Positions 33,985-42,562 of a stretch of DNA of 64,000 nucleotides are shown here, piece by piece. Location of the stretch: assembly GCA_002356515.1 (NCBI GenBank), contig AP017605.1:4597001-4661000 (forward strand). Reading direction: 5' to 3'. How positions within the stretch are numbered: position 1 is the first letter of the stretch; each line of letters begins with the position of its first letter. The position numbers and the translations under genes are program-made. This DNA comes from Mesorhizobium loti (lineage in GTDB: Bacteria > Pseudomonadota > Alphaproteobacteria > Rhizobiales > Rhizobiaceae). A model generated the notes under the pieces. It was not told the DNA's origin and did not search any database. It saw nothing but the letters and a program-made list of their open reading frames with translations.

Positions 33985-34758
33985 ATGATACGCGCGGTGC
34001 TCCTGGATATTCTGGGTGTCATCTATGATGCCGACACCCCGATCGCGGGCGCCGTGGCCGCGGTCGAGCGCCTGCGTCGGGCCGGCTTGCCGCTCCGCTT
34101 TGTCAGCAACACGACACGCACGCCGCGCGAAGCAATGATCGAGCAGCTTGCCGCTCTGGGAATCGAGGTGACCGATGCGGAATTGCTGACGCCGGCCCGT
34201 GCCGCTGTCGAATGGCTGCGCCGCCATGAATGCCGGCCCCATTTGCTCGTCCATCCTGACTTGGAAGCCGAGTTCTCCGGACTGGAGGGCGGGAACGGGT
34301 GTGCTGTCGTCGTCGGCGATGCCGGTGACGCCCTCGACTATGCTGGTCTCAACCGGGCGTTTCGCGAACTTGTTGCCGGCGCCGATTTCGTGGCGCTTGC
34401 CACCAACCGTACCTTCAAGGATGCGGACGGCCTGTTTAGCCTCGACGCCGGCGCGTTTGTTGCGGCGCTCGAATTCGCCAGCCGCCGTCCCCCCGTAGTG
34501 CTCGGCAAGCCGTCGCCGGATTTCTTCCTTTCGGCGCTCGCCGACGTGAACTGCCCGGCGGCCGATGCGGTCATGGTCGGCGACGATGCGGAAAGCGATG
34601 TCGCCGGCGCGCTGCGTGCGGGACTTGGCGCGGCACTGCTCGTTCGGACGGGCAAGTATCGCCCGGGCGATGAAACACGCTTCGATCCGCCCCCGACGGC
34701 GATCGTCCACGATCTCGCCGCTGCGGCGGATTGGATACTCAACCGCGCCGCAGCCTGA
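33985..34758 (+). CDS. HAD-superfamily hydrolase of LHPP type
   Basis: A 257-residue subclass IIA HAD phosphatase. Motif I reads LLDILGVIYD: the nucleophile Asp is kept, but the acid-base Asp two residues on is Leu. Human LHPP has a similar departure (DISG), which is why I compare it with the phospholysine/phosphohistidine/pyrophosphate phosphatase group. Motif II is VSNTTRTP, the motif III Lys is in LGKPSPDFF and motif IV is VMVGDDAESD. The substrate is unknown. Its 3' end overlaps that of the convergent regulator gene by 20 bases. Confidence 0.8.
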   Translation: MIRAVLLDILGVIYDADTPIAGAVAAVERLRRAGLPLRFVSNTTRTPREAMIEQLAALGIEVTDAELLTPARAAVEWLRRHECRPHLLVHPDLEAEFSGLEGGNGCAVVVGDAGDALDYAGLNRAFRELVAGADFVALATNRTFKDADGLFSLDAGAFVAALEFASRRPPVVLGKPSPDFFLSALADVNCPAADAVMVGDDAESDVAGALRAGLGAALLVRTGKYRPGDETRFDPPPTAIVHDLAAAADWILNRAAA

Positions 34759-35719
34759 CCGGCGCTTCGCCGAACGCTCTTGAAAACGCTCTTGAAAATG
34801 CCGCGGCGGACGAGAAACCTGTCCGCCCGGCAATGTCGGCCATGGCCACCCTGGTGTCGACCACCAGCCTGCGCGCGGCACCCAGGCGCAGCCTGAGATA
34901 ATAGGCACCTGGCGTCTCGCCGATCGACTTGCGAAAAATGCTTTCCAGGGTGCGTGCCGTCACCCCGGCACGCTTGGCGATGGCCTCTATGGTCAGCGGC
35001 TGGTCGACATGCGCTTCCATCAGCCGGATGGCCTGCGCCAGGCGTGGATCGTAGCCGTCGAGCCGGCCAAGCGAGACCAGCGGCTGCGCATCGGTCGCCA
35101 CGCGCGCCTGGTCGTAGATGAAGGCGCTTGCCACATCGAGCGCCACAGCCATGCCGAGCCGGGTGCGGATCAGGTGCAGCATCAGGTCGAGCGTCGGCGA
35201 CGCACCGCCCGTGGTGAAGACCGGCCCATCGATGATGTATCGATCGGGGCGCACGTCGACGCCGGGAAAAGCCGACGAAAAATCCTCCATGTCTTCCCAA
35301 TGGGTGGTGGCGCTGCGCCCTTCCAGCAGTCCGGCGCGCGCCACCAGCCAGGTGCCCGCCTCGACGCCGCCGCAGGCGCGGGCCGACCGTGCCGCGCGCC
35401 GCAGCCCGGCGAGCAAGGCTGACGTGGCATAGTTCTGCGTGCCGAAACCCGCGACCACGACCAGGACGTCGGTAGGCTCCGTCGCATCGAACCGGCCGCT
35501 GACCGCCACGGGCAGCCCACATGTCGTGACCGGGGCCTCCCCGGTCACCGAAACCAGTTTGAAGTCGAACAGCGTTTCGCCGGCGATGCGGTTGGCGGCG
35601 CGCAGCGGATCGACGGCGCACGCCACGCACATGATGGACGCCCCGGAAAACACCAGCAGCGTCACCTTCAGCGGCGACTGCTCAGCGCGAAAGATTGTCG
35701 CTTTTTCGTTTTTTATCAT
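34739..35719 (-). CDS. GlxA-family AraC-type regulator, candidate carnitine-locus activator
   Basis: A 326-residue protein. The start at 35719 (MIKNEKATIFRAEQ) has AAGG upstream; longer in-frame extensions run into the divergent gene's promoter. The N-terminal half is a DJ-1/PfpI-like domain (VLVVVAGFGTQNYA, CGGVEAGTWLVARAGLL), and the C-terminal half is an AraC HTH pair (TIEAIAKRAGVTARTLESIFRKSIG; MADIAGRTGFSSAAAFSRAF). This architecture is that of CdhR/GbdR, regulators of carnitine and betaine genes in Pseudomonas. It is divergent from the BKACE gene with an 80-base gap, so a role as its activator is likely. Confidence 0.85.
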   Translation of the reverse strand: MIKNEKATIFRAEQSPLKVTLLVFSGASIMCVACAVDPLRAANRIAGETLFDFKLVSVTGEAPVTTCGLPVAVSGRFDATEPTDVLVVVAGFGTQNYATSALLAGLRRAARSARACGGVEAGTWLVARAGLLEGRSATTHWEDMEDFSSAFPGVDVRPDRYIIDGPVFTTGGASPTLDLMLHLIRTRLGMAVALDVASAFIYDQARVATDAQPLVSLGRLDGYDPRLAQAIRLMEAHVDQPLTIEAIAKRAGVTARTLESIFRKSIGETPGAYYLRLRLGAARRLVVDTRVAMADIAGRTGFSSAAAFSRAFSRAFGEAPVRLRRG

Positions 35720-35798
35720 GTCGCCTTCGTAAAGCGCAAAGCAACCTCCCGCAAGTCGCGCAATGTTATGCCTCTGTTCGAATTGGGAGGAGAATTCC

Positions 35799-36722
35799 AT
35801 GCCGCTTGCGATGAACCGTGAGGTTTTCATTACCTGTGCCGTGACCGGGTCCGGCGGCTCGCAGGATCGCTCTCCGCATGTGCCGCGTTCGCCCAAGCAG
35901 ATCGCCGATTCGGCCATCGACGCGGCCAAAGCCGGTGCGGCGATCGTCCACTGCCATGTGCGCGATCCAGAGACCGGCAAGCCCAGGCGCGATGTGCATC
36001 TCTACCGCGAAGTGACCGAACGCATCCGTGATGCGAATGTCGACGTCGTGCTGAACCTCACTGCCGGCATGGGCGGGGACATGGTATTCGGCTCGCCGGA
36101 GGCGCCGCTGCCGCTCAACGAAAAAGGCACCGACATGGGCGGCGCCACCAACCGCATGGAACATGTGCGCCAGTGCCTGCCGGAAATTTGCACGCTCGAC
36201 TGCGGCACCATGAACTTCGCCGAAGCCGACTACGTCATGACCAACACGCCGGGCATGCTGCGCGCCATGGGCGGCATGATGACGGCGCTCGGCGTCAAGC
36301 CCGAGATCGAGGCGTTCGACACCGGCCATCTGTGGTTCGCCAAGCAACTGGTCGAGGAGAAGGTGCTCAACCCCGACGCGCTGGTGCAGCTCTGCATGGG
36401 CGTGCCGTGGGGGGCGCCGGACGATCTCAACACCTTCATGGCCATGGTCAACAATGTCCCGTCGACCTGGAACTGGTCGGCTTTCGCCATCGGCCGCAAC
36501 CAGATGGCCTATGCGGCGGCGGCGGTGCTCGCCGGCGGCAATGTCCGCGTTGGTCTCGAAGACAATCTCTGGCTCGACAAGGGCGTGCTGGCGACCAACG
36601 CGCAACTGGTCGAGCGCGCCGCCAGCATCGTCACCAATCTCGGCGCCAGGATTTTGGGGCCGGAGGAAGTGCGCAAGAAGCTCAACCTGACCAAGCGAGC
36701 GCCGATCGCAGCCGCGGCATAA
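35799..36722 (+). CDS. BKACE-family beta-keto acid cleavage enzyme, likely dehydrocarnitine cleavage
   Basis: A 307-residue DUF849 protein. The start at 35799 follows GGGAGGA. The zinc-site histidines are in AAIVHCHVRDPETGKP, and RADVLNLT-type and GNVRVGLEDN blocks match the family. BKACE enzymes use acetyl-CoA to split a beta-keto acid. Next to carnitine dehydrogenase the expected reaction is 3-dehydrocarnitine + acetyl-CoA to betainyl-CoA + acetoacetate. It is the first gene of a six-gene run. Confidence 0.88.
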   Translation: MPLAMNREVFITCAVTGSGGSQDRSPHVPRSPKQIADSAIDAAKAGAAIVHCHVRDPETGKPRRDVHLYREVTERIRDANVDVVLNLTAGMGGDMVFGSPEAPLPLNEKGTDMGGATNRMEHVRQCLPEICTLDCGTMNFAEADYVMTNTPGMLRAMGGMMTALGVKPEIEAFDTGHLWFAKQLVEEKVLNPDALVQLCMGVPWGAPDDLNTFMAMVNNVPSTWNWSAFAIGRNQMAYAAAAVLAGGNVRVGLEDNLWLDKGVLATNAQLVERAASIVTNLGARILGPEEVRKKLNLTKRAPIAAAA

Positions 36723-36737
36723 AGACGGGAGCGCACC

Positions 36738-37367
36738 ATGGCTACCGTCAAATTCACCGCGATGAAGGATGGCGACAAGGACGATTACGAGTTCCTGACC
36801 GCCCATGAAATCGACTATGCCGCCAAGACCGGCGAGCGGCTGCTCGACGCGCTGGTGCAGCTCGACGAAGGCTTGTCGGGCTACAAGATCACCCGGCTTG
36901 GCCATTCGCTGCAGGCGGCGACGCGCGCCTGGCGAGACGGCGCCGACACCGACTGGATCGCCTGCGCGCTGCTGCACGACATCGGTGACATCTACGCGCC
37001 CTACAATCACGACGAATACGCCGCTTCGATCCTGAAGCCCTTCGTGCGCGAGCAATGCACCTGGGTGGTGGAAAAGCATGGCGATTTCCAGCGGCTCTAT
37101 TACGCCCACCATCTTGGCGGCAACCGCCATGCCCGCGACCGCTTCGCAGGCCATGCCTTTTTCGACGATTGCGACCAGTTTTGCGAACGCTGGGACCAGT
37201 CGAGCTTCGACCCCGATTATGAGACGCTGCCGATCGACTTCTTCCGGCCCTTCGTGCTCGAAGTCTTTGCCCGCAAGGCTTACGACCCGGCCGTGATCCG
37301 CGCCGGCGAGCGTGTGCCTCTCATCGATCCCGAAACTGCCAGGACAAGAACCGGAGCCTCAGCATGA
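36738..37367 (+). CDS. HD-domain protein resembling HD diiron oxygenases, in the carnitine operon
   Basis: A 209-residue protein. HD-type metal ligands are in order: His56 (RLGHSLQAA), His80-Asp81 (LLHDIGD), His91 (YNHDEYA), His114 (VEKHGDF) and a late Asp153 in CERWDQSSFDP. The 24-residue His-to-HisAsp spacing and the final Trp-Asp motif recall PhnZ/TmpB and MIOX, mixed-valence diiron oxygenases, more than HD phosphohydrolases. It has 15 bases to the BKACE gene and overlaps the carnitine dehydrogenase start by four (ATGA). TmpB acts on a trimethylammonium compound, which makes an oxygenase on a quaternary amine attractive. This is inference; hydrolase activity is the alternative. Confidence 0.65.
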   Translation: MATVKFTAMKDGDKDDYEFLTAHEIDYAAKTGERLLDALVQLDEGLSGYKITRLGHSLQAATRAWRDGADTDWIACALLHDIGDIYAPYNHDEYAASILKPFVREQCTWVVEKHGDFQRLYYAHHLGGNRHARDRFAGHAFFDDCDQFCERWDQSSFDPDYETLPIDFFRPFVLEVFARKAYDPAVIRAGERVPLIDPETARTRTGASA

Positions 37368-38476
37368 GCATCATCAACAAGGCGGCCGCCATTGGCGGCG
37401 GTGTCATCGGCGCCGGCTGGGTGGCGCGGCTGCTGCTCAACGGCATCGACGTCTCGATCTTCGATCCGGATCCGGAAGCCTCGCGCAAGGTCTCGGAAGT
37501 GATGAAAGGTGCACGCCGCGCCTATAAGCAGATGGTGCCCGGCGGTCTGCCGAAAGAGGGCAAGCTGACCTTAGCCAAGACCATCGCCGAGGCGGTGGCC
37601 GATGCCGACTTCATCCAGGAAAGCGTGCCGGAACGGCTCGACCTCAAGCACAAGGTGCTGGCCGAGATCGATGCCCATGCCCCGGCCAATGCTATCGTCG
37701 GCTCGTCGACCTCCGGCATCAAGCCGACCGACATGCAGGTGGCGATGAAGAAGCACCCCGAGCGGCTGGTCGTCGGCCATCCGTTCAATCCGGTCTATCT
37801 CCTGCCGCTGGTCGAAATCGTCGGCGGTGATCAGACCTTCCCCGAGGCCATCGAGGTCGCCAAGGAGATCTATGGCTCGATCGGCATGAAGCCGGTCGTC
37901 ATCCGCAAGGAGATCGAAGCTTTCGTCGGCGATCGCCTGCTCGAAGCGGCCTGGCGCGAAGCGCTGTGGCTGATCAAGGACGGCATCTGCACCGTCGAGG
38001 AGCTCGACGACATCATGCGCTACGGCTTCGGCCTGCGCTGGGCGCAGATGGGCATGTTCCAGGTCTACCGCGTCGCCGGCGGCGAAGCCGGCATGCGCCA
38101 CTTCATGGCGCAGTTCGGCCCGTGCCTGAAATGGCCGTGGACCAAGCTGATGGACGTGCCGGAGTTCAATGACGAACTGGTCGACCTGATCGCCACCCAG
38201 TCGGACGACCAGGCGCATGGCCTGTCGATCCGTGAGCTGGAAAAGATCCGCGACGACAATCTGGTCGCGATCATGGATGCGCTGTCGAAGCAGAACAAAG
38301 GCAAGGGCTGGGGCGCCGGCGCCTTGCACAAGGATTACACCAAGCAGCTGGCCAAGCTGGCGGCGAAGAAGCCGGCGGCTTCCAAGGCCGCCGAGAAGGC
38401 CAAGGCCTCCAAGCCGGTGAAGAAGGTGGAAAAGCCGGCAAAGGGCGGCAAGGCGAAGAAAAGCAAGAAAGGCTGA
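37364..38476 (+). CDS. carnitine 3-dehydrogenase with a Lys-rich tail
   Basis: A 370-residue member of the 3-hydroxyacyl-CoA dehydrogenase-like family. The Rossmann motif is GGGVIGAG (11-18). SSTSGIKPTD, GHPFNPVYLLPLVEIVGG and the RYGFGLRWAQMG block are typical of L-carnitine dehydrogenases, which oxidise L-carnitine to 3-dehydrocarnitine with NAD. The core ends near residue 325; about 45 residues of Lys/Ala/Pro-rich, disordered-looking tail follow. In some rhizobia this enzyme is fused to a thioesterase domain, which is absent here. It overlaps the HD gene by four bases. Confidence 0.88.
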   Translation: MSIINKAAAIGGGVIGAGWVARLLLNGIDVSIFDPDPEASRKVSEVMKGARRAYKQMVPGGLPKEGKLTLAKTIAEAVADADFIQESVPERLDLKHKVLAEIDAHAPANAIVGSSTSGIKPTDMQVAMKKHPERLVVGHPFNPVYLLPLVEIVGGDQTFPEAIEVAKEIYGSIGMKPVVIRKEIEAFVGDRLLEAAWREALWLIKDGICTVEELDDIMRYGFGLRWAQMGMFQVYRVAGGEAGMRHFMAQFGPCLKWPWTKLMDVPEFNDELVDLIATQSDDQAHGLSIRELEKIRDDNLVAIMDALSKQNKGKGWGAGALHKDYTKQLAKLAAKKPAASKAAEKAKASKPVKKVEKPAKGGKAKKSKKG

Positions 38477-38480
38477 GACG

Positions 38481-39644
38481 ATGGATTTCGGTCTTTCGGA
38501 GGAACAAAAACTCATCGTCGAGACGACGCGCGCCTTCGTCGAGAACGAGCTTTACCCGCATGAGCGCGAGGTCGAGCGCACCGGCGTGCTGCGCCGCGAT
38601 CTGATCGAGGAGATCAAGGCCAAGGCGATCGAAGCGGGCCTTTACGCCGCCAACATGCCGGCGGACGTCGGTGGCGCGGGCCTCGATACGGTGACCTGGC
38701 TGCTCTACGAAAAGGAACTCGGCCGCGCCAACTACGCGCTGCACTGGACCTGTGTCGCGCGGCCTTCCAACATCCTGCTCGCCGGCACGCCGGAGCAGCG
38801 CGAAAAGTACCTATTCCCCTGCATCCGCGGCGAGAAATGGGACTGCCTGGCGATGACCGAGCCCGGCGCCGGTTCCGACCTGCGCGGCATGAAGGCATCA
38901 GCCGTGCAGGATGGGGACGACTGGGTGCTCAACGGCACCAAGCATTTCATCTCCCACGCCGATCTCGCCGATTTCGCCATCGTCTTCATGGCTTCCGGCG
39001 AAGAGGATTCGCCGCGCGGCAAGCGCAAGAAGATCACCGCCTTCTTCGTCGACAAGGGCACCAAGGGCTTTGCGGTGCGCGACGGATATCGCAATGTCTC
39101 GCATCGCGGCTACACCAACGCCATCCTCGAATTCGACGATTGCCGGCTGCCGGCAAGCCAGGTGCTCGGCGAAGTGCACAAAGGCTTCGAGGTCGCCAAT
39201 TCTTGGTTGGGCGCCACCCGCCTGCAGGTTGGCGCCACCTGTCTCGGCCGGGCCGAGCGGGCGCTCGGCCACGCCATCGAGTATTCCGCGCAGCGCCAGC
39301 AATTCGGCCAGCAGATCGGCAAGTTCCAGGGCGTGTCGTTCAAGCTTGCCGACATGGCCACGGAACTGAAAGCCGCCGACCTGATGGTGTTCGAAGCCGG
39401 CTGGAAGTACGATCAGGGCACCGTCACCGACCAGGACATGGCCATGGCCAAGCTGAAGGCCACCGAAATGCTGGCCTACGTTGCCGACGAAGCGATCCAG
39501 ATCCATGGTGGCATGGGGCTGATGGACGACCTGCCGCTGGAGCGCATCTGGCGCGACGCCCGCGTCGAGCGCATCTGGGAAGGCACGTCGGAGATTCAGC
39601 GACATATTATTTCGCGGGCGCTGCTGCGTCCGTTCGGAGCTTAG
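38481..39644 (+). CDS. acyl-CoA dehydrogenase, likely gamma-butyrobetainyl-CoA dehydrogenase
   Basis: A 387-residue FAD flavoenzyme of normal length. Signature blocks are CLAMTEPGAGSD and the C-terminal QIHGGMGLMDDLPLERIWRDARVERIWEGTSEIQ, with the catalytic Glu in WEGTSE. It starts four bases after the dehydrogenase gene. With the synthetase and CaiD-like hydratase downstream, the likely step is gamma-butyrobetainyl-CoA to crotonobetainyl-CoA. Other acyl-CoA substrates cannot be excluded on sequence alone. Confidence 0.82.
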   Translation: MDFGLSEEQKLIVETTRAFVENELYPHEREVERTGVLRRDLIEEIKAKAIEAGLYAANMPADVGGAGLDTVTWLLYEKELGRANYALHWTCVARPSNILLAGTPEQREKYLFPCIRGEKWDCLAMTEPGAGSDLRGMKASAVQDGDDWVLNGTKHFISHADLADFAIVFMASGEEDSPRGKRKKITAFFVDKGTKGFAVRDGYRNVSHRGYTNAILEFDDCRLPASQVLGEVHKGFEVANSWLGATRLQVGATCLGRAERALGHAIEYSAQRQQFGQQIGKFQGVSFKLADMATELKAADLMVFEAGWKYDQGTVTDQDMAMAKLKATEMLAYVADEAIQIHGGMGLMDDLPLERIWRDARVERIWEGTSEIQRHIISRALLRPFGA

Positions 39645-39702: not shown

Positions 39703-41787
39703 ATGACCATGCATAAACTTGAACGTCTCCTGCGCCCGAAATCGATCGCCGTCTTCGGTGGCGTGCAGGCCGCCGCCGTCGTCGCGCAATCGATCAAGAT
39801 GGGTTTTGCCGGCGAAATCTGGCCGGTGCACCCGACCAAGGACGAGGTTGCCGGCCGCAAGGCCTATCGCTCGGTTGCCGATCTGCCCGGTGCGCCGGAC
39901 GCCGCCTTTGTCGGCGTCAACCGGCATCTGACCATCGAGGTCGTCAAGGCGCTGGCCGAACGCGGCGCCGGTGGCGCCGTCTGCTTTGCCGCCGGCTTCC
40001 TCGAGACCGAGGCCTATGATGACGATGGCGAACGATTGCAGGCCGAGCTCGTCGCGGCAGCCGGCGAGATGCCGATCATCGGCCCAAACTGCTATGGCCT
40101 GATCAACTATGCCGATGGCGCGCTTTTGTGGCCGGACCAGCATGGCGGTATCAGGCTGGACGAGGGCGGCAAGGGCGTCGCCATCATCACCCAGTCCTCC
40201 AACATCGCCATCAACATGACGATGCAGAAGCGCGGCCTGCCGATCGCTTTCCTGATGACGGCCGGCAACCAGGCGCAGACCGGCCTGTCCGAAATGGCGC
40301 TCGGCCTGATCGAAGACGATCGTGTCACGTCGCTCGGCCTGCACATCGAAGCCTTCGATTCGGTAGCCGGCTTCGAACGGTTGGCCGCCAGGGCGCGCGA
40401 GCTGAAGAAGCCAATCATCGCCATGAAGGTCGGCCGTTCCGAGCAGGCGCGGCAAGCGACCGTCTCGCATACCGCGTCACTGGCCGGTTCGGATGCGGCC
40501 TCGGGCGCTTTCCTGAGGCGGCTTGGCATTGCGCGCGTCGATTCCATTCCCGCCTTCATCGAGGCGTTGAAGCTGCTGCACATCACCGGCCCGCTGCCCG
40601 GCTACAGGCTGTCGTCGATGAGCTGTTCGGGCGGCGAAGCCTCCGTCATGGCCGACAGTGCCGAAGGCCGCTGGGTCAATTTCCCGGTTCTGACGGAAAC
40701 GCACCGCGCCCATGTCAAATCGACGCTCGGGCCGCTGGTCGCGGTCGCCAACCCGTTGGACTACCACACCTTCATCTGGAACAACGAGCCGGCGATGACC
40801 GCCACCTTCACTGCCATGGTGTCGGGTGGCTTCGACCTCAACATGCTGGTGCTCGACTTTCCGCGCCCCGACCGCTGCTCGGTCACCGACTGGTGGGCGA
40901 CGTTGCGTGCCTTCGAATCGGCGCTGAAAACCAACAAGGCGCATGGCGCCATCGTCTCCTCGCTGCCGGAAAACCTGCCCGAGGAATACACCGCCGAACT
41001 GATGGCGCGTGGCATGGTGCCCCTGTTCGGCATTTCCGAGGCGATGGATGCCGCAGGCGCAGCGGCCTTCATCGGCTGGGCGTGGGCTGAACCGCAGGCG
41101 CAGCCGATCGACACGTCTGCTTCCGGCGCTGCCGGCGGCGAGCATGTCACGCCCGACGAGGCCGAGGCCAAGGCGAGGTTGATCAAGGCCGGTCTTCCGG
41201 TGCCCAAGGGCGAGCGCGCCGGCAATGCGGTCGAGGCGGTGATCTCGTCGATGGCGCTCGGCTTTCCCGTCGCTCTGAAGGCGCTGGGTGTCGCCCACAA
41301 ATCCGAGGTCGGCGCTGTCAGGCTCAACCTCAAGGACGCCGAATCCGTGAGCACGGCGGCGCATGATCTGCTGCCGCTCGGCACCGGGCTTTATGTCGAG
41401 CGCATGGTGCGCGACGGTGTCGCCGAACTGATCGTCGGCTTCACCAGGGATCCGATGTTCGGAGCGGTGATGACGCTGGGCACAGGCGGCGTGCTGGTCG
41501 AGTTGCTGCGCGACAGCGTCACGCTGATGCTGCCGGCGACCCGCGACGACATCGAGGCGGCATTGCGCGGCCTCAAGCTGTTCCCGCTGCTCGAAGGCTA
41601 TCGCGGCCGGCCGAAGGCCGATGTCGCGGCCGCCATCGACGCCATCGCGGGCATTGCCGGCTTCGTGCAGAAGAATGCCGGCGAGATCGAGGAACTCGAC
41701 ATCAACCCGCTGATCGTCTGCGTCGAAGGCAAGGGTGCCTGGATCGCCGACGCGCTGCTGGTGCTGGGAGAGAACAAGAATGTCTGA
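39703..41787 (+). CDS. ADP-forming acyl-CoA synthetase, likely for gamma-butyrobetaine/carnitine
   Basis: A 694-residue acetate-CoA ligase (ADP-forming)-type protein: N-terminal CoA-binding domain (RPKSIAVFGGV), succinyl-CoA-synthetase-like domain with the phospho-His in TVSHTASLAGSD, and a C-terminal ATP-grasp domain from about residue 470 (FPVALKALGVAHKSEVGAV, ending IEELDINPLIV). Here it may take the place of the AMP-forming CaiC, charging a betaine acid with CoA. It overlaps the hydratase gene by eight bases. The 58-base gap before it contains a diverged palindrome. Confidence 0.82.
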   Translation: MTMHKLERLLRPKSIAVFGGVQAAAVVAQSIKMGFAGEIWPVHPTKDEVAGRKAYRSVADLPGAPDAAFVGVNRHLTIEVVKALAERGAGGAVCFAAGFLETEAYDDDGERLQAELVAAAGEMPIIGPNCYGLINYADGALLWPDQHGGIRLDEGGKGVAIITQSSNIAINMTMQKRGLPIAFLMTAGNQAQTGLSEMALGLIEDDRVTSLGLHIEAFDSVAGFERLAARARELKKPIIAMKVGRSEQARQATVSHTASLAGSDAASGAFLRRLGIARVDSIPAFIEALKLLHITGPLPGYRLSSMSCSGGEASVMADSAEGRWVNFPVLTETHRAHVKSTLGPLVAVANPLDYHTFIWNNEPAMTATFTAMVSGGFDLNMLVLDFPRPDRCSVTDWWATLRAFESALKTNKAHGAIVSSLPENLPEEYTAELMARGMVPLFGISEAMDAAGAAAFIGWAWAEPQAQPIDTSASGAAGGEHVTPDEAEAKARLIKAGLPVPKGERAGNAVEAVISSMALGFPVALKALGVAHKSEVGAVRLNLKDAESVSTAAHDLLPLGTGLYVERMVRDGVAELIVGFTRDPMFGAVMTLGTGGVLVELLRDSVTLMLPATRDDIEAALRGLKLFPLLEGYRGRPKADVAAAIDAIAGIAGFVQKNAGEIEELDINPLIVCVEGKGAWIADALLVLGENKNV

Positions 41788-42562
41788 CGTCATTTCGACC
41801 CGCCGCGAAGGCTCGATCCTCGAGGTCACGCTCGACCGGCCCAAGGCCAATGCCATCGACCTCAAGACCTCGCGGCTGATGGGCGAGACCTTCAAGGCGT
41901 TCCGCGACGATCCGGAGCTTCGCGTCGCCATCGTCAAGACCGCCGGCGACAAGTTCTTCTGCGCCGGCTGGGACTTGAAAGCTGCTGCCGGCGGCGATGC
42001 TGTCGATGGCGACTACGGCGTCGGCGGCTTTGCCGGCCTGCAGGAGCTGCGCGACATGAACAAGCCGGTCATCGCCTGTGTCAACGGCATGGCGGTCGGC
42101 GGCGGCTTCGAACTGGCGCTGTCCTGCGACCTCATCTACGCCTCCGACCACTCTTCCTTCGCGCTCCCCGAAATCCGCGCCGGCACGCTGGCCGATGCCG
42201 CGACGATCAAGCTGCCGAAGCGCATTCCCTACCACGTCGCAATGGACCTTCTGCTCACCGGCCGCTGGATGGATGTCGCCGAAGCGCATCGCTGGGGCCT
42301 AGTCAACGAGGTGCTGCCCAAGGAAAAGCTCGAGGATCGCGTCTGGGAGATCGCCCGCCTGCTCGCCAGCGGCCCGCCGCTGGTCTTCGCCGCCATCAAG
42401 GAGACCGCGCGGGTGGCCGAAGCGCTGACCTTCCAGGACGCGATGAACAGAGTGACGCGCCGCCAGCTGGCGACGGTCGATGCGCTCTACGGTTCGGAAG
42501 ACAATATGGAAGGTTTCCGCGCCTTCGCCGAAAAGCGCGACCCGGTGTGGAAAGGGAAGTGA
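41780..42562 (+). CDS. caiD: CaiD-like enoyl-CoA hydratase (carnitinyl-CoA dehydratase type)
   Basis: A 260-residue crotonase. Oxyanion-hole segments are KFFCAGWDLKA and AVGGGFELALSCD; the acid/base Glu is in FALPEIRAGTL. The overall form, including CAGWDLKAAAGG and the C-terminal FAEKRDPVWKGK, is that of CaiD. It hydrates crotonobetainyl-CoA to L-carnitinyl-CoA. It is the last gene of the operon, followed by a family A repeat. The ribosome site lies inside the synthetase coding region. Confidence 0.85.
   Translation: MSDVISTRREGSILEVTLDRPKANAIDLKTSRLMGETFKAFRDDPELRVAIVKTAGDKFFCAGWDLKAAAGGDAVDGDYGVGGFAGLQELRDMNKPVIACVNGMAVGGGFELALSCDLIYASDHSSFALPEIRAGTLADAATIKLPKRIPYHVAMDLLLTGRWMDVAEAHRWGLVNEVLPKEKLEDRVWEIARLLASGPPLVFAAIKETARVAEALTFQDAMNRVTRRQLATVDALYGSEDNMEGFRAFAEKRDPVWKGK

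Follow-up and report, generated by a model that had tools for sequence, protein, structure and literature searches.

We lean towards reading an HD-domain protein encoded within a carnitine operon of Mesorhizobium loti as a dinuclear-iron oxygenase which, judged from sequence, would cleave a trimethylammonium alcohol after a first, hydroxylating step and so feed carnitine catabolism. The protein falls into a family of its own near PhnZ and TmpB, keeps an intact set of metal ligands and differs from TmpB at substrate-facing positions. Its gene holds a regular place in the operon, has relatives that adjoin hydroxylases of four families, and is tied genome-wide to carnitine dehydrogenase (CDH).

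The HD gene and its operon

In the window, meaning the whole 64,000-nucleotide stretch of DNA that was analysed, the gene order is BKACE, HD, CDH, CaiA-like acyl-CoA dehydrogenase, ADP-forming acyl-CoA synthetase and CaiD-like hydratase, with a divergent GbdR-like regulator. All operon gene names except that of CDH come from profile matches below cut-offs.

34739..35719, - strand: GlxA/AraC-type regulator, GbdR-like (NF052371 GbdR, 202.8 bits, cut-off 480)
35799..36722, + strand: BKACE, beta-keto acid cleavage enzyme (KCE profile NF052387, 229 bits, cut-off 382)
36738..37367, + strand: HD-domain protein (209 aa, ATG start)
37364..38476, + strand: L-carnitine (3-)dehydrogenase, CDH (NF005716, 592.9 bits, cut-off 592; model positions 1-349 of 495)
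38481..39644, + strand: acyl-CoA dehydrogenase, CaiA-like (NF002885 crotonobetainyl-CoA dehydrogenase, 184 bits, cut-off 540)
39703..41787, + strand: ADP-forming acyl-CoA synthetase (acetate-CoA ligase profiles, below cut-offs)
41780..42562, + strand: enoyl-CoA hydratase, CaiD-like (NF002936 crotonobetainyl-CoA hydratase, 317 bits, best match, cut-off 500)

The BKACE stop at 36722 leaves 15 bases before the HD start, and the TGA stop of HD overlaps the ATG of CDH at 37364 by 4 bases (ATGA). The coupling to CDH and closeness to BKACE proposed in the initial annotation are borne out by these junctions, and its neighbour identities were right, with CDH just above its cut-off and the KCE/BKACE profiles, which match 35763-36722, below theirs. 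The longest ORF of the regulator reaches 35980, with a likely start at 35719 by comparison with one relative, and those of BKACE and the CaiD-like gene begin at 35763 and 41735. A reverse-strand ORF of 462 aa which overlaps the HD gene was treated as a shadow ORF.

The presumed substrate pair of BKACE is dehydrocarnitine:acetyl-CoA. The CaiA-like gene is presumed to encode gamma-butyrobetainyl-CoA dehydrogenase; the highest score, 295.8 bits for acryloyl-CoA reductase, likewise fails to reach the cut-off of that profile. The window CDH has 370 aa, and nothing in it corresponds to the C-terminal end of its 495-aa model. Its tail is Lys/Ala-rich, and relatives have versions of 475-497 aa.

Family placement

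Pfam HD (PF01966) matches the protein at 23.4 bits, just above the cut-off of 22; this Pfam family also includes hydrolases. The scores for MIOX (PF05153, 19.1 bits, cut-off 25), NCBIfam PhnZ-like (TIGR03276, 33.2 bits, cut-off 214.6), NCBIfam PhnZ1 (27.5 bits, far below cut-off) and TmpB (NF049941, 22.4 bits, curated cut-off 300) all fall short. By its sequence the protein is in neither the PhnZ nor the TmpB family, as its scores lie far below the cut-offs and the Glu, His and Lys of TmpB are replaced.

When solved structures were searched with the single sequence, PhnZ (5e-5) was followed by TmpB (0.02) and Cas10 (0.037). With a 51-row family profile, PhnZ (1.2e-12) and TmpB (4.9e-11) came first, and next a dNTPase-like structure (0.086), Cas10 (0.15) and MIOX (0.33). 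Profile-profile comparison with 24 TmpB/PhnZ-type sequences gave a probability of 99.6% (E 5e-24) in global mode, with the ligands paired, and of 99.4% (3e-21) in local mode. Sequence and profile comparison thus support a position nearer to the PhnZ/TmpB oxygenases than to HD hydrolases and uphold the oxygenase likeness that had been preferred over a nucleotide phosphohydrolase.

In one database search, 7855 of 8000 scored candidates passed E 1e-3. Relatives are named peptidase, phosphohydrolase or plain HD protein, and the closest are from Mesorhizobium (77 of 80 titled so among the best 80 of 421 relatives in named genomes).

Active-site residues

Residues were counted in 131 family rows, with three TmpB sequences as comparison.

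36882..36884, + strand: Tyr49, where the YxxE loop has Glu (Tyr/Phe 129/131; TmpB Glu 3/3)
36903..36905, + strand: His56, metal ligand, start of HxxQ (131/131)
36975..36980, + strand: His80-Asp81, metal ligands (131/131 each)
36987..36989, + strand: Asp84, where TmpB has His (HDIGH) (Asp 127/131; TmpB His 3/3)
37008..37010, + strand: His91, metal ligand (131/131; aligns with a TmpB His)
37077..37079, + strand: His114, metal ligand (131/131; aligns with the His of TmpB HVAAK)
37089..37091, + strand: Gln118, where TmpB has Lys (Gln 131/131; TmpB Lys 3/3)
37194..37196, + strand: Asp153, last metal ligand (WDQ) (131/131)

The ligand layout and the Trp152-Asp153-Gln154 motif are as first described, and the His/Asp set, whose fate in relatives had been named as a check, is retained in every row. 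The absence of the PhnZ Tyr/Glu loop is likewise confirmed, with position 46 being Tyr in 8/131 rows and position 49 mostly aromatic. The ligand set of HD oxygenases, their mixed-valent chemistry and the YxxE loop are treated in excerpts of PMC8177086. Further conserved positions are Gln59 (129/131), Arg53 (128/131) and Arg133 (130/131); the three TmpB have Met at 53 and Val at 133. HxxQ and the final Asp are common to the HD family and TmpB, and the TmpB/PhnZ stretch SxxSLxLQGG falls in an alignment gap against the HD family.

In PhnZ, His62 and Lys108 (the His after HDxG and the Lys after HxxA) bind the phosphonate. As the ligands are invariant and positions 49, 84 and 118 are changed, the metal site is kept and the substrate-facing residues of TmpB/PhnZ are altered. 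TmpB had been offered as a hint to the substrate, which is weakened by these three replacements and by a separate true TmpB in the same genome (331 bits, cut-off 300). On the same two grounds a phosphonate role was set aside. No phosphonate gene is annotated near HD in five annotated plasmid loci. At about 1.21 Mb of contig G000:C1 of the same genome (L337), a TauD gene adjoins a TmpB gene that scores above the curated cut-off, presumably as a TmpA/TmpB pair.

The HD gene as an optional part of the carnitine operon

The scan of named genomes covered the best 80 of 421 relatives and thus represents a close set. CDH follows HD in 80/80 of these loci, and BKACE lies upstream in 79/80, in 77 of which no labelled gene on that side is closer; in L048 and L052 a regulator ORF lies between BKACE and HD by centre position, and the 80th locus (L071) ends at a contig edge upstream. 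Operon-type HD genes occur in 19/247 family genomes from 10 genera, 17 with BKACE and CDH read within 1.7 kb either side and two (G051, G055) with CDH adjacent by coordinates. In one partial case (G824, locus L194), BKACE is upstream and CDH is on another contig.

CDH is found in 154/247 family genomes, against 19 or 20 with operon-type HD. Twenty CDH loci were read, 19 of them picked for having no HD beside CDH and one as a positive (L297). Among the HD-less loci, L287 had no CDH call, and 16 of the other 18 have BKACE then CDH with nothing called between, 14 of these keeping the whole order through CaiD. The operon thus exists without HD in relatives. The HD gene is therefore optional: inserted between BKACE and CDH, it keeps this place across genera but does not always accompany the operon. 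The linkage to carnitine genes claimed initially is strong within the Mesorhizobium clade (80/80) and genome-wide, and it is qualified by the HD-less operons and by HD relatives in other operons.

A quick tree of 134 rows, in which 54/131 inner branches are weak, holds a clade of 41 rows (SH-aLRT 97) that includes operon-type, AibH2-type, PF04116-type and PhyH-linked genes. The operon-type rows group within it (25 rows including L194 and L071, SH-aLRT 93).

Genome-wide association with CDH

In the family, CDH occurs in 43/44 HD genomes versus 111/203 HD-less ones, and in 23/24 genomes with a non-operon HD (G824 being grouped with the operon type; p 4e-5, which, like the other CDH/HD co-occurrence p values here, does not remove shared ancestry). 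For the class, 52 HD genomes were compared with 108 (the lower-numbered) of a random 150 HD-less genomes. CDH-like genes at E 1e-50 were present in 37/52 versus 16/108, those with at least 43% identity in 32/52 versus 7/108, and CDH in genomes of at least 3 Mb in 25/37 versus 4/38 (p 3e-7). TmpB-like genes served as a control in the part searched for both, again at 3 Mb or more; they occur in 10/17 HD versus 11/26 HD-less genomes, which is no clear association (p 0.36), and CDH in that same part in 11/17 versus 3/26 (p 6e-4). No CDH match at E 1e-50 was obtained in 15/52 class HD genomes, two of which (G147, G628) have a TauD-HD pair.

Hydroxylases beside HD genes in other operons

HD matches were found in 59/398 genomes of the phylum draw (E 1e-10), 53/385 of the class draw and 44/247 of the family draw (E 1e-60). 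Loci were read for 60/63 phylum places, 6/15 plasmid records, 38 family and 22 class cases, which with the window makes 127 (126 plus one): 20 of operon type, 1 partial and 106 other.

A same-strand hydroxylase lies within 1.7 kb in 30/106 non-carnitine loci, a count that includes near-copies and is favoured by the search, as the hydroxylase queries were taken from such neighbours. The partners are PhyH (12), TauD (11), an AibH2-like PF04909 protein with a Rieske ferredoxin (4) and PF04116 (3); one further TauD beside HD is on the opposite strand, and the remainder of the same regions holds 3 hydroxylase matches. In 8/23 PhyH or TauD pairs the longest ORF overlaps HD by 1 or 4 bases. The occurrence of four unrelated hydroxylase kinds in the same slot suggests that HD completes a two-step route, by which additional nitrogen compounds would reach carnitine catabolism. 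The other 76/106 loci have no recognised hydroxylase neighbour; five of them contain a class II aldolase, and two contain sarcosine-oxidase-like genes and GlxA-type regulators.

On an annotated Pseudomonas plasmid, TauD and HD occur together with genes for a choline-binding protein, a choline dehydrogenase and an aldehyde dehydrogenase. On a Rhizobium plasmid, reductase-, LysR- and AibH2-like genes, a Rieske gene and HD lie together with TetR-, choline-dehydrogenase-, choline-binding- and aldehyde-dehydrogenase-like genes. The TauD-HD pair of L160 has CDH, BKACE and a regulator as neighbours, along with another TauD that is BBOX-like. The context names RidA, TetR, LysR, sarcosine oxidase, GlxA-type and the L177 choline genes were given by eye or by likeness to the annotated locus L174.

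The genome of the window has a second HD copy (L082/L113, G000:C1 at about 2.08 Mb), whose operon also encodes an AibH2-like PF04909 protein and a Rieske ferredoxin; this operon is convergent with a gene whose best match, below cut-off, is the NCBIfam trimethylamine methyltransferase. In L173 (9001-11483), L198 and L199, HD is directly followed by a PF04116-type membrane hydroxylase, with a divergent LysR gene, and in L173 a ketopantoate hydroxymethyltransferase-like gene comes after the hydroxylase. RidA proteins act on imines. In two loci (L229, L231) from small genomes of one genus, GcvT-like and RidA-like genes lie upstream of TauD-HD in the same direction, and a RidA-like gene also occurs at a greater distance from a single HD gene of the 'other' type. 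The pattern is suggestive, but the cases are too few.

The partner TauD as a substrate clue

Asn191 of BBOX holds the carboxyl group of gamma-butyrobetaine (excerpts of PMC13257696), and trimethyllysine hydroxylase has Asp231 at this place, which is thought to bind the alpha-ammonium (excerpts of PMC7764450). TauD matches from 80 genomes were read at this site (70/75). Asp is present in 10/10 TauDs sharing an operon with HD, and in an eleventh HD-linked TauD, that of the Pseudomonas plasmid; the opposite-strand TauD near HD has Asn. TauDs beside TmpB/PhnZ-type genes have Asp in 0/33 (32 Asn, 1 Ser) and the remaining ones in 6/26. The HD-linked TauDs score highest for TmpA (318-423 bits in 8/11 scored; cut-off 400, passed by one) and are related to one another, so their Asp may be one event.

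Two of the 6 other Asp TauDs come from HD genomes and have TmpA as their nearest family, at scores under the TmpA cut-off. Against the trimethyllysine dioxygenase cut-off of 268.3, three others pass (305, 303 and 299 bits) and a fourth is below (248). The three proteins at trimethyllysine dioxygenase level (L356, L363, L365; alphaproteobacterial) are in HD genomes with HD not adjacent; for a dedicated TauD-HD pair this is neutral or unfavourable. Inspection by eye of the surroundings of the L363 gene (L369) showed no recognisable carnitine gene.

The Asp of the partner, taken together with Asp84 and the arginines of HD, which are absent in TmpB, makes an amino-acid end of the substrate plausible. 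The substrate of AibH1H2 is likewise an amino acid (literature excerpts). Conversion of 3-hydroxy-trimethyllysine to gamma-butyrobetaine would connect to the carnitine operon.

In the 22 operon-type genomes, an AibH2 partner is found in three (G000, G051, G171) and a PhyH partner-like gene of 41-44% identity in two (G071, G819), with a third at 33-36%; an Asp-type TauD is present in none of those read (all but the G055 TauD). The three partner hydroxylases searched (AibH2-type, PhyH and Asp-type TauD) are absent from 17/22. With unlinked partners mostly missing, the trimethyllysine reading becomes less likely for the operon of the window itself; there, the hydroxylation falls to a different enzyme, or else the alcohol is carnitine or a carnitine derivative.

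Proposed function and alternatives

The enzyme would form a new dinuclear-iron branch beside PhnZ and TmpB, and we infer its O2 chemistry, its two irons, the bond cleaved and the substrate. An alcohol bearing a trimethylammonium group would bind with its hydroxyl at one iron, O2 would be activated at the other, the hydrogen of the carbinol carbon would be removed and the neighbouring C-C bond broken, leaving a carboxylate. The cleavage product would then enter carnitine and glycine betaine catabolism. The missing partner hydroxylases in operon genomes leave us with moderate confidence in the reaction class and little in the substrate.

The leading candidate substrate, put forward tentatively, is 3-hydroxy-trimethyllysine, which would give gamma-butyrobetaine, glyoxylate and ammonia. 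Carnitine itself comes next and is a less probable substrate; otherwise another trimethylammonium alcohol may be used. A complete bacterial trimethyllysine pathway, which we regard as a shade more doubtful than its key substrate, would have an interchangeable hydroxylase (Asp TauD, PhyH, PF04116 or AibH2-like Mn/Fe) that makes 3-hydroxy-trimethyllysine, and HD would cleave C2-C3 with O2, taking over from the aldolase and aldehyde dehydrogenase of eukaryotes. Gamma-butyrobetaine would then be converted by the operon to carnitine and on to glycine betaine. Other ideas considered were alpha-oxidation of a betaine, in which the substrate would be an alpha-hydroxy acid, and a role with homocholine or beta-alanine betaine; a literature search gave nothing usable for them.

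Were HD a carnitine oxygenase, it would use O2 to split L- or D-carnitine directly into glycine betaine and an acid of two carbons, a shorter route that needs no CoA and runs parallel to CDH/BKACE; the alcohol would come from the CaiA-like, acyl-CoA synthetase and CaiD-like enzymes in the operon and from hydroxylases elsewhere. On chemical reasoning the TmpB substrate has its nearest analogue in carnitine (N-CH2-CHOH-X), which the operon itself should produce, and the lack of the three searched hydroxylases in 17/22 genomes fits. We still consider this rather unlikely, since such an enzyme would be redundant with CDH and BKACE, HD has other residues at positions 49, 84 and 118, where those of TmpB might have been reused for such a substrate, and in the partner TauDs an Asp occupies the site at which BBOX holds a carboxylate with Asn191. 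An enzyme that clears a damaged pathway product, for example from 3-dehydrocarnitine, would suit an HD gene that is optional in the operon and lives in genomes where CDH is commoner than in HD-less ones, and excerpts of PMC5979481 refer to CO2 loss that yields trimethylaminoacetone as carnitine is broken down. We rate it lower again, as it leaves the hydroxylase neighbours in other operons unexplained. Of the two roles first offered for the gene, a new entry reaction therefore fits best, and side-product handling keeps a small share of probability.

It is improbable that the protein is an ordinary HD phosphohydrolase with a nucleotide or a phosphate ester as its substrate. The Pfam HD match of 23.4 bits agrees with such an enzyme, and some databases name relatives predicted HD phosphohydrolase, but solved hydrolases reach E values of at least 0.086 with the family profile versus 1e-11 to 1e-12 for the oxygenases, the HxxQ and final Asp motifs are as in TmpB, and the readable contexts are catabolic. 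HD might instead stand in for the absent C-terminal thioesterase domain of CDH and hydrolyse betainyl-CoA, given that the window CDH covers only positions 1-349 of its model and that two activities, oxidation of carnitine and formation of glycine betaine from betainyl-CoA, are described for one dehydrogenase of Sinorhizobium (excerpts of PMC12482172). This idea was dropped as very improbable because HD also sits beside CDH of 475-477 aa (L179, L182, L184, L190, judged by length and C-terminal sequence); furthermore, operons that lack HD can have a CDH of 351-378 aa, and the acyl-CoA synthetase of the operon could do the betainyl-CoA step.

The HD gene probably represents, to judge from its sequence, an unstudied branch of iron enzymes that use O2 to cut molecules. 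No published description of an HD-carnitine enzyme was found in the open-licence full texts available as excerpts. The operon place suggests a small set of candidate substrates. If the proposal is true, a C-C cleaving diiron oxygenase would be added to quaternary-amine catabolism, a substrate clue would be gained for AibH2-like hydroxylases of unknown substrate, and the entry of trimethyllysine or similar compounds into the bacterial carnitine route could be explained.

Comparison with known systems

Three HD oxygenases, MIOX, PhnZ and TmpB, are named in excerpts of a 2020 review (PMC8177086), and NCBIfam adds a further one, the hydroxymethylphosphonate enzyme. TmpB is the (R)-1-hydroxy-2-trimethylammonioethylphosphonate oxygenase (PDB 6NPA), with TmpA as partner. 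The HD protein resembles it in the six metal ligands, HxxQ, the final Asp, the TauD-type hydroxylase partner of some relatives and the trimethylammonium context, and differs in its score (22.4 versus 300 bits), in the replaced Glu, His and Lys, and in the gap at SxxSLxLQGG. PhnZ (PDB 4MLM, 4N6W, 4N71) is the best solved-structure match, and the hydroxylase pairing recalls that of PhnZ with PhnY (PMC8177086, excerpts); unlike PhnZ, the protein scores 33.2 bits against 214.6 and its family is without the YxxE loop.

MIOX has the same ligand set, according to excerpts of PMC8177086, and C-C cleavage is the proposed reaction type; the Pfam match is weak at 19.1 bits, below the cut-off of 25, and the solved MIOX gives E 0.33. 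A Phaeobacter plasmid relative is annotated as an inositol oxygenase family protein.

Eukaryotic carnitine biosynthesis consists of trimethyllysine hydroxylase, 3-hydroxy-trimethyllysine aldolase, an aldehyde dehydrogenase and BBOX. The partner TauDs share with this route the Asp which separates trimethyllysine hydroxylase from BBOX (PMC7764450, excerpts), whereas the proposed bacterial route would have one oxygenase in place of the aldolase and dehydrogenase.

AibH1H2 is a Mn/Fe hydroxylase of 2-aminoisobutyrate which works with AibG and AibF. By sequence likeness, the four loci with a PF04909-type partner and a small Rieske ferredoxin resemble this system, and a flavin/2Fe-2S reductase-like gene is nearby in L177 and L195. 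In the excerpted text of section 7 of PMC10401708, adjacent HD genes are not mentioned, and 555 uncharacterised AibH2-like proteins are described, 90% of which have a Rieske neighbour.
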